Below are positions 31,815 to 53,412 of a DNA stretch of 64,000 bases, piece after piece. The DNA comes from Propionibacteriaceae bacterium (lineage in GTDB: Bacteria > Actinomycetota > Actinomycetes > Propionibacteriales > Propionibacteriaceae): the NCBI GenBank assembly GCA_031265875.1, contig JAISCA010000048.1:173346-237345 (forward strand), written 5' to 3'. Under the pieces are notes generated by a model. The model was not told the origin of the DNA. It did not search any database and saw nothing but the letters and a program-made list of their open reading frames with translations. Positions within the stretch are counted from its first letter, which is position 1; each line of letters opens with the position of its first letter. The translations under genes and the position numbers were made by a program.

Positions 31815-32261
31815 TCACTCCGTCAGCCCCACCACTTCCACCGGCAGCCGGTCGAAGTCGGCCGCGTTGCCGGTCACGACGGCGCCGATGCCGTTCACAA
31901 GAGCGCACGCCGCGATGTTCGCGTCGTGGACGCGCACACCGGTGACGCCGATGTCCTGGACCAGTTCCAGTAGCTTCCGCCAGGTGGCGAGGGTCTCGGG
32001 TAGCACGGTCGTCGCCTCGGCGAACTCCGCCACGTCCCGGATGGCGTCGGGCAGAGCCAGACCCAGCCCGTTGGCGGCCACCGGCCGCGTCGCCACGACT
32101 AGGAACTCCCGGAGCACCTGCGTAGTGGTGTAGAGCGCGACACCCAGAGCCGGCCAGCCTTCGAGAGTCTGGATCGCGTTTCCCCTTTCCGGCCGGCTCT
32201 CATCGACCGCAGCCAGGAAGACGTTGGTGTCGATCAACACCCGGCGCGCCGCAGGCGTCAC
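31815..32261 (-). CDS. PIN-domain toxin, VapC/FitB-like
   Basis: RRVLIDTNVFLAAVDESRPERGNAIQ...GVTGVRVHDANIAACALVNGIGAVVTGNAADFDRL; GTG start overlapping antitoxin stop. Confidence 0.85.
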   Translation of the reverse strand: MTPAARRVLIDTNVFLAAVDESRPERGNAIQTLEGWPALGVALYTTTQVLREFLVVATRPVAANGLGLALPDAIRDVAEFAEATTVLPETLATWRKLLELVQDIGVTGVRVHDANIAACALVNGIGAVVTGNAADFDRLPVEVVGLTE

Positions 32262-32485
32262 CGGCCGCTTCCGTAGATCTCGTCGCGGCTCCACAGCGAG
32301 GCGCCTTGAGACCGGCCGGCCACCAGGCGCAGCGTCTTCCTCTCGGAGGGCTGCGTGACCGGCTCGGCCACCGCCCGCTCCAGGATGTCGAGCAACTCGG
32401 CTTGGAGTGAGCGCTCCTGTCGACGAGCGCGCTCCGCCAGAGCCGCCTTCGTCTCGGGGCTGAGCCCCCGGATCAAGACATCCAT
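32258..32485 (-). CDS. FitA/VapB-like RHH antitoxin
   Basis: MDVLIRGLSPETKAALAERARRQERSLQAELLDILERAV. Confidence 0.85.
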   Translation of the reverse strand: MDVLIRGLSPETKAALAERARRQERSLQAELLDILERAVAEPVTQPSERKTLRLVAGRSQGASLWSRDEIYGSGR

Positions 32486-32597
32486 AGTCGAATGCTATCG
32501 CTAGCGCTATCGACAAGCAAGAGTCGGAACACAAGAGTCGGAACGGCTACCGACCCCACGCGGTGGAACGAAACCGCGCACAAGGGCACCCGCCGCG

Positions 32598-32756: not shown

Positions 32757-32948
32757 CGTCCAACCTCCAATTCATCAACACTGACGAAGAGCCCTGGCTC
32801 CAGCCGCAGGCCGTGGGGAGCGCGGCTCAATGGCTGGAACACTATCACGCGGCACTGCGGGGTCCGCTGGGCCGGCAAGGGTTGCGAATCGCCTGGCGTG
32901 AGTGCGTTCGCCAGGCCTCGGCCGCCCAATGGGCGACCTATTGAATTT

Positions 32949-33194
32949 GTGGAGGTGCTTAGCCGACCGCGCTACGCACGGCCGACTTTCAACCCCCGCC
33001 TGCTCACACGCCACAAGGACCGAGGCTACGCCTCGCCCCCTGGTCAGCCCGGCCGCCGCCCCAGCGAGACAGTGGAGGTGCTTAGCCGACCGCGCTACGC
33101 ACGGCCGACTTTCAACCCCCGCCTGCTCACACGCCACAAGGACCGAGGCTACGCCTCGCCCCTTGGTTTGCCCGGCCGCCGCCGCCCCAGCGAG
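32949..33194. repeat. Tandem imperfect duplication (~120 bp x 2), each unit beginning with GTGGAGGTG
   Basis: gtggaggtgcttagccgaccgcgctacgcacggccgactttcaacccccgcctgctcacacgccacaaggaccgaggctacgcctcgcccc at 32949 and again at 33072. Confidence 0.9.
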
Positions 33195-33227: not shown

Positions 33228-33256
33228 CGAGGGCCGACCCTTTGGGTCGGCCCTCG
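33228..33256. terminator. Hairpin CGAGGGCCGACCC-ttt-GGGTCGGCCCTCG
   Basis: 13-bp perfect stem, outer flank of the ssrA-tail element. Confidence 0.6.
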
Positions 33257-33269
33257 CGCGTGTTCGGTC

Positions 33270-33462
33270 GTGGAGGTGGCGGGAGTCGACGCGGGTTCGC
33301 TCCGCGAAACCGCCATCCTCGCTGGGCCTTCAGCCCAGCTCGGACCGTTCGCTATGAGAAGGCCTATGGCCTTCTCATAGACGCTCACGCCCTCTCGGGT
33401 TCGACTCCCACGGCACTATATAAATTCAATTGGGCCACCCTATGGGCGGCCCAATTGAATTT
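33270..33462 (-). repeat. tmRNA-tail element (structured non-coding element downstream of ssrA)
   Basis: 20-nt copy of the ssrA 3' end at 33270..33289, hairpins, inverted T-arm copy at 33396..33409, terminator hairpin 33422..33462; homologous core to 53144..53338. Confidence 0.75.
33422..33462 (-). terminator. ssrA terminator hairpin
   Basis: AAATTCAATTGGGCC-accctatgggc-GGCCCAATTGAATTT, 15-bp perfect stem abutting the ssrA 3' end. Confidence 0.75.
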
Positions 33463-33463
33463 G

Positions 33464-33829
33464 TGGAGGTGGCGGGAGTCGAACCCGCGTCCTTGAGCGG
33501 CGCTACAGGTCTTCTCCGGGCGCATCCGACCATGTCGTTCCACTCGGCTCTCACCCTCCTGTCGGCTTGTGGTGAACGAGCCCAGCCCTAGTTGAGTCCC
33601 GCGCCGTCCCTAGGACCTAAGCGGCGCAGCCAGCCTTCAAAATGAGACCAGGTTCCCCGGGGAAGGCGCCCGGGGTCTGACCCTTCGATCGCTGATCAGG
33701 CAGCGAGAGCGAAGTTAGTGCGCATGTTCTTGGCACTTATTGGTTTCCAGGGAGCGTTAACGAGACAACCCTGAATCCTCGGCCCGCTTCCCCTGGAACT
33801 ACCGTCCCAAGTCGAAACCGGTCACCCCC
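33464..33829 (-). ncRNA. ssrA: transfer-messenger RNA (tmRNA)
   Basis: 5' GGGGGTGACCGGTTTCGACTTGGG... 3' GGGTTCGACTCCCGCCACCTCCA; acceptor stem pairs; tag frame GCC AAG AAC ATG CGC ACT AAC TTC GCT CTC GCT GCC TGA = AKNMRTNFALAA*. Confidence 0.96.
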
Positions 33830-53143: not shown

Positions 53144-53338
53144 GTGGGCGCAACAGGACTTGACGCGGTTTCCTGCGGAAACCGCCGTCCTCAGCCTTCC
53201 CGTTGGTCAGGCTTCGGACCGCTCGCTACGAGAAGGCCAACGGCCTTCTCGCTTGACGCTCGCGCCCTCACGGGTTCAAGTCCGTAAAACATCGTTGATT
53301 TGGTTTGGGCCGCCCCCTGGGCGGCCCAAACCAAATCA
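53144..53338 (-). repeat. tRNA-tail element (structured non-coding element downstream of tRNA-Val)
   Basis: 20-nt copy of tRNA-Val 3' end at 53144..53163, hairpin GCGGTTTCC-tgc-GGAAACCGC, hairpin GAGAAGGCC-aac-GGCCTTCTC-type core, inverted T-arm copy 53269..53283, terminator hairpin 53297..53337. Confidence 0.75.
53297..53337 (-). terminator. tRNA-Val terminator hairpin
   Basis: GATTTGGTTTGGGCCGCC-ccctg-GGCGGCCCAAACCAAATC, 18-bp perfect stem. Confidence 0.75.
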
Positions 53339-53339
53339 G

Positions 53340-53412
53340 TGGGCGCAACAGGACTTGAACCCGTGACCTATTCCTTGTAAGGGAATCGCTCTACCAACTG
53401 AGCTATGCGCCC
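53340..53412 (-). tRNA. tRNA-Val(TAC)
   Basis: GGGCGCATAGCTCAGTTGGTAGAGCGATTCCCTTACAAGGAATAGGTCACGGGTTCAAGTCCTGTTGCGCCCA; anticodon loop CTTACAA. Confidence 0.95.

Follow-up and report, generated by a model that had tools for sequence, protein, structure and literature searches.

Tail units behind ssrA and tRNA genes in Propionibacteriaceae, with ends matching the host gene around a conserved structured core

The stretch from the T-loop to the 3′ end of tRNA genes is a usual target of integrases, and casposon/CRISPR-type integration duplicates its target next to a tRNA gene. Tail repeats carrying a tRNA 3′ end are known chiefly from Escherichia coli tyrT, and their origin is unexplained. These E. 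coli tyrT tail repeats, with their rtT RNA (Rfam RtT), reportedly described by Bosl and Kersten in 1991, are the closest known system to the units considered here. RtT is released from tRNA transcripts, has been linked to the stringent response and is seen on Northern blots, and its relatives lie near other tRNAs in Pasteurellaceae (PMC4986893). Some bacterial interspersed mosaic elements (BIMEs) also resemble rtT (PMC2965389).

The locus compared with these systems lies in a window of 64,000 nucleotides (the whole stretch of DNA that was analysed; 67% GC) from a Propionibacteriaceae bacterium. The tails of the type found behind its ssrA gene point to RNA inserts of a little-known class, whose ends are adapted to the host gene. 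No description of such a tRNA-tail family was found in the literature, as far as open-licence papers are concerned.

The ssrA unit and its relatives in the same genome

The host gene, ssrA (tmRNA), occupies 33463–33829 on the minus strand (ARAGORN and Rfam RF00023, 158 bits), and the unit reads 5′ to 3′ along with it on that strand, as do all the parts given below. The initial annotation had described an exact second copy of the 20-bp ssrA 3′ end (GTGGAGGTGGCGGGAGTCGA) at a spacing of 193, with a set of hairpins in between, and every one of these parts is present. Copy 1 of the 3′ half (TCGACTCCCGCCACCTCCAC), at 33463–33482, belongs to the working tmRNA, and copy 2, an exact direct repeat, is found at 33270–33289. 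From the tmRNA 3′ end toward the core, the first part is a terminator-like inverted repeat at 33422–33462, whose 19-nt arms (33422–33440 and 33444–33462) are 95% complementary. The next is an inverted copy of the ssrA T-arm (GTGGGAGTCGAACCCG; 33396–33412), matching at 14/14 positions (33396–33409 versus 33474–33487); it constitutes the 5′ strand of the closing helix P0, while the first bases of copy 2 provide the 3′ strand, in pairs that covary with the inverted T-arm. The conserved RNA core (33290–33400) comprises a GNRA-type hairpin, the long P1/P2 hairpin, the P3 arm and the P4 hairpin, and is supported by RNAalifold, by shuffles and by covariation in 46 copies. The inner hairpin 33352–33364/33368–33380 (13/13), the GCTGGGC-cttca-GCCCAGC element and the GCGGGTTCGC/GCGAAACCGC hairpin were all found in the sequence. 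Folded alone, the ssrA unit gives z = −7.4 against 200 dinucleotide shuffles; this value, together with the further copies at other tRNAs of the same genome, places the unit far beyond chance.

Past copy 2, another inverted repeat on the minus strand (33228–33256) is inferred to be, probably, an older ssrA terminator. The flank around it directly follows ssrA in a sister genome, G109, where part of the hairpin is missing. Farther out, a 123-bp tandem pair (32916–33161) constitutes a second, different tail repeat derived from ssrA: its copies end in GTGGAGGTG, the ssrA 3′ end, and at the far end in a degenerate copy of the unit's hairpin; one copy is common to G109. An open reading frame at 31815–32534 on the minus strand has a C-terminal part that resembles, by eye only, a PIN-domain (VapC-type) ribonuclease.

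The second host in the window is tRNA-Val (tac) at 53339–53412 on the minus strand (ARAGORN, Rfam). The unit behind it (53150–53338, minus strand), identified by sequence, blastn and a covariance model match of 149.5 bits, consists of a terminator hairpin, an inverted tRNA-Val T-arm, the core and a copy of the tRNA-Val 3′ half; the score is not independent of the model (R1), whose training includes this copy. As had been proposed from the letters alone, the two tails are homologous (53156–53329 aligns with the ssrA tail at 73%, E 2.6e-18 within the window) and the end copies are local, the tRNA-Val unit having its own end copy and its own inverted T-arm. Failure to find a third copy would have counted against the initial annotation; an assembly search with the ssrA unit revealed copies behind tRNA-Gly-tcc, tRNA-Gly-ccc, tRNA-Met and tRNA-Leu-cag, one at the 3′ end of tRNA-Ala, and one inside the T-loop of a truncated tRNA-Cys-like gene, and a single ectopic duplication is ruled out. 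The assembly contains about ten copies, full or partial, and the refined model finds ten at E < 0.01.

At the tRNA-Cys-like gene (locus L072, G000 C44:107300-108800), the unit interrupts the T-loop and the 3′ half lies ~160 nt downstream. Either the gene is a relic, or splicing would be needed to restore it; another, intact tRNA-Cys is present in the same genome. On account of this split copy, a group I intron was considered, in which the inverted T-arm would be the internal guide sequence and copy 2 the 3′ exon. It was rejected as the main reading, without being excluded: the tRNA is already completed by copy 1 at nearly all sites, the expected splice site lacks a G-U pair, and the core is small, without a recognised catalytic core.

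Several other repeats were observed around tRNA genes. Tandem tails of another type repeat the tRNA 3′ part at tRNA-Pro-ggg (~4x) and tRNA-Thr-cgt and have the string GGCCCGCCAACG in common. A second small hairpin module, GATTGAG...CGATTGA, was met six times, each time close behind a tRNA/tmRNA end or an end copy. Moreover, units at L043/L122, L073 and L074 lie near contig ends and are shortened or bordered by AGGGGTTATCGG, probably the terminus of an insertion sequence.

RNA fold and distribution of the family

In the consensus derived from five full copies, the inverted T-arm pairs with copy 2 of the tRNA 3′ half to form a closing helix, which encloses the small GNRA-type hairpin, the long P1/P2 hairpin, P3 and P4. 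Across 46 aligned copies, compensatory change is found in 45 of the 49 base pairs, both sides changing at least once. Double-change cells number 491, against 132 expected in shuffles, with 0/500 shuffles reaching as high a value, and the signal is destroyed when pairing partners are slid. Nine pairs with compensatory change fall in the closing helix, and the tRNA 3′ half therefore belongs to the fold: paired with each other, the inverted T-arm and the second 3′-half copy make up the base helix of a multi-arm structure that is conserved in two orders. The core has 47 G-U pairs against 15 A-C mismatches, P1 and P3 taken together have 28 against 2, and G-A mismatches recur at fixed places. The G-U excess suggests an RNA of the tRNA-sense strand. 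It is support rather than proof, because the alignment is fitted to the model, which favours paired and G-U cells somewhat, and transcript data are lacking.

The covariance-model search suggested by the initial annotation was carried out with R1 over 198 genomes of the family (Propionibacteriaceae). It matched in 21 of them, from 5 genera, with copies at about twenty tRNA kinds and ssrA; the hosts include Ala, Arg, Cys, Glu, Gly, His, Leu, Lys, Met, Ser, Thr, Val and ssrA. Among the 45 copies examined, 40 immediately follow an annotated tRNA or tmRNA gene on the same strand; the remainder mostly carry tRNA/tmRNA 3′ fragments. A class-wide search added only one new genome, of another order, with two matches, both at tRNA-Ser genes and one with an exact local end copy. 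These two matches amount to a near-independent confirmation, since the model has no knowledge of the tRNA body. Rfam 15 gave no family over the core at gathering or permissive thresholds, only sub-threshold chance matches, and no copy was found in plasmid, phage or viral-contig collections, nor any carrier replicon there.

Filled and empty sites, local ends and their explanation

The units occupy the T-loop/3′ end of their host tRNA or tmRNA genes, and such sites exist both filled and empty. The empty-site comparison at ssrA, also suggested at the outset, was successful: the sister genome G109 lacks the unit, and its alignment with the present genome is interrupted by a single 193-bp gap, which opens in the T-loop and is followed by ~200 bp of related flank. 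The tmRNA itself was searched in the genus because smpB is mostly not beside ssrA there, and the unit was found in 3 of the 16 ssrA loci. Among the genus members whose tRNA-Val was read, only this genome has the tRNA-Val unit. The ssrA sites are also empty in named Propionibacteriaceae relatives (smpB neighbourhoods), which are too distant to date the event. Gain and precise loss via the 20-bp repeats are not separable here. About 130 nt behind the ssrA of another genome (G100), a possible decayed core remnant (GAGCGGTCCGCCGGCCGGC...GACC) suggests an older unit lost at that site.

The ends follow the host gene and the cores follow the genome. The repeat begins in the T-loop (TCRA) and usually measures 19–24 nt for single units, being longer where another unit, whole or partial, follows. 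The identity of the end copy is 0.925 (92.5%) with its own gene and 0.59 with other genes, and the maximum over 10,000 permutations is 0.66, which makes the end specificity statistically secure. Core distance is 0.33 between different tRNAs of the same genome versus 0.45 for the same tRNA in other genomes, and the three ssrA cores are not each other's nearest relatives.

The reading that we regard as rather probable is that of an rtT-like tRNA-tail RNA element, gained and lost at T-loops; its action as RNA and its spread are inferred. On the tRNA strand, 5′ to 3′, the unit consists of a hairpin (often a terminator), the inverted T-arm, a structured core of ~120 nt and the second copy of the host 3′ half. 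The structure would act as RNA, produced by read-through from the host promoter; action on the tRNA strand is inferred because G-U exceeds A-C there. The core may spread among tRNA genes and take on the ends of each new gene as it arrives; the simplest route would be strand exchange or template switching at GGTTCRANTCC, the near-universal T-arm sequence that borders the core in both orientations. The host gene would stay working by means of the added hairpin or terminator and the restored 3′ half. Several points speak against this reading. Besides the lack of a distinction between gain and precise loss, the genome-wise clustering of the cores could reflect gene conversion and not movement, and the terminator ahead of the core should lower transcription from the host promoter, for which there are no transcript data. 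No mobilising protein was found for the tail units.

Gene conversion also has a part in an alternative that we consider unlikely, according to which the tails are stationary, anciently inherited RNAs, kept at each tRNA while gene conversion homogenises the cores within a genome. Genome-clustered cores and tRNA-clustered ends would then arise without movement, and the E. coli rtT repeats are indeed a tyrT tail. However, the units are patchy within one genus (3/16 at ssrA; one at tRNA-Val among the members examined), the mutual relationships of the three ssrA cores do not fit inheritance in place, and conversion would need to stop exactly at the ends.

Retro-insertion, whereby an RNA is reverse-transcribed into a tRNA gene and ~20 bp of the target (the 3′ half) are duplicated, accounts for the local direct repeats and for the T-loop junction, the unit being a structured RNA. 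It is nevertheless quite improbable in our judgement: the reverse transcriptase domain PF00078 is absent from this 99% complete genome with its ~ten units and is patchy in other carriers, and the local inverted T-arm is not explained by retro-insertion alone. A past supply of reverse transcriptase in trans is not excluded.

The structure might instead act as DNA, a folded single strand or cruciform offering ends to a recombinase, and have no role as RNA. Around the core there is indeed an inverted repeat, formed by the inverted T-arm and the 3′-half copy, and the size is small and MITE-like; yet the strand-asymmetric excess of G-U over A-C and the G-A mismatches at fixed places point to an RNA of the tRNA strand, and we give this possibility little credence. 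The interpretation as att scars, i.e., relics of integrase elements directed at the tRNA 3′ end, with the duplicated 3′ half as attL/attR, fits the T-loop-to-3′-end span of the repeat and the direct repeats flanking the insert but can hardly be maintained, given that one integrase element has one attachment sequence whereas the single core family has about twenty, each local (the attachment sequence is not fixed for the family, the end copies following the local gene), that neither an integrase-sized insert between the repeats nor an integrase gene in the 193 bp is found, only the RNA unit, and that the RNA fold covaries through the repeat itself.

A more far-reaching version of the rtT-like element is put forward only tentatively. 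It would be a minimal, gene-less mobile RNA element of ~120 nt, able to enter nearly any tRNA or tmRNA gene at the T-loop. At each move it would rebuild both ends from the host gene and leave that gene unharmed by supplying a new 3′ half and a terminator; the tyrT/rtT repeats of E. coli would belong to the same class as a domesticated or frozen case. Should the mobility reading hold, the element is a mobile one whose ends are drawn from every new target, a behaviour that we know from no other bacterial element. Because the family occurs at ssrA and about twenty kinds of tRNA, and because sister species have both filled and empty sites, the origin and function of such tails become open to test. 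Furthermore, apparent att scars or pseudo-tRNA fragments behind tRNA genes may belong to a structured RNA.

Comparison with known systems

The islands and satellites that tyrosine recombinases place at tRNA/tmRNA 3′ ends resemble the tail units in their T-loop/3′-end site and in the direct 3′-half repeat that restores the gene. Unlike them, the tail units have no integrase, measure 140–200 bp, and combine a host-dependent end sequence with a structured RNA core. Casposon/CRISPR-type integration produces a target duplication of similar size at the tRNA 3′ end, and tandem arrays of repeat units are possible; the difference is that the tail-unit structure spans the repeat. BIMEs share with the tail units the character of small dispersed palindromic repeats, but to our knowledge they are not tied to tRNA genes and carry no host-gene ends.

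With respect to rtT, Rfam scans of the window and of five relatives gave no RtT match, either at gathering level or at E<=10 / E<=1. By the family model, rtT reaches 10 bits only (E 0.047). Homology is left open, because the narrow model R1 missed rtT, and the broad model R2 ranked two rtT units first only weakly. By model, the tail element and rtT do not form one Rfam family. The tail element is filed as one that works like rtT, a classification made without transcript data, and not as a member of RtT. In contrast to rtT, the tail units have many tRNA kinds and ssrA as hosts, contain a terminator in most cases, and possess a larger core that differs arm by arm. The shared features concern the architecture. 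As in rtT, the repeat unit ends in the 3′ end of the upstream tRNA, and the strings AGGGTGAGAACC and AACGGCCCGAAG are common to both. At the tyrT locus of E. coli O157, the parts are ordered as in the tail units, namely tRNA, spacer, inverted 3′-half stem, core with tandem-GA arms and tRNA 3′-end copy, in a repeatable unit, and in the predicted fold of that unit, as here, a helix of the inverted stem and the end copy closes several arms.
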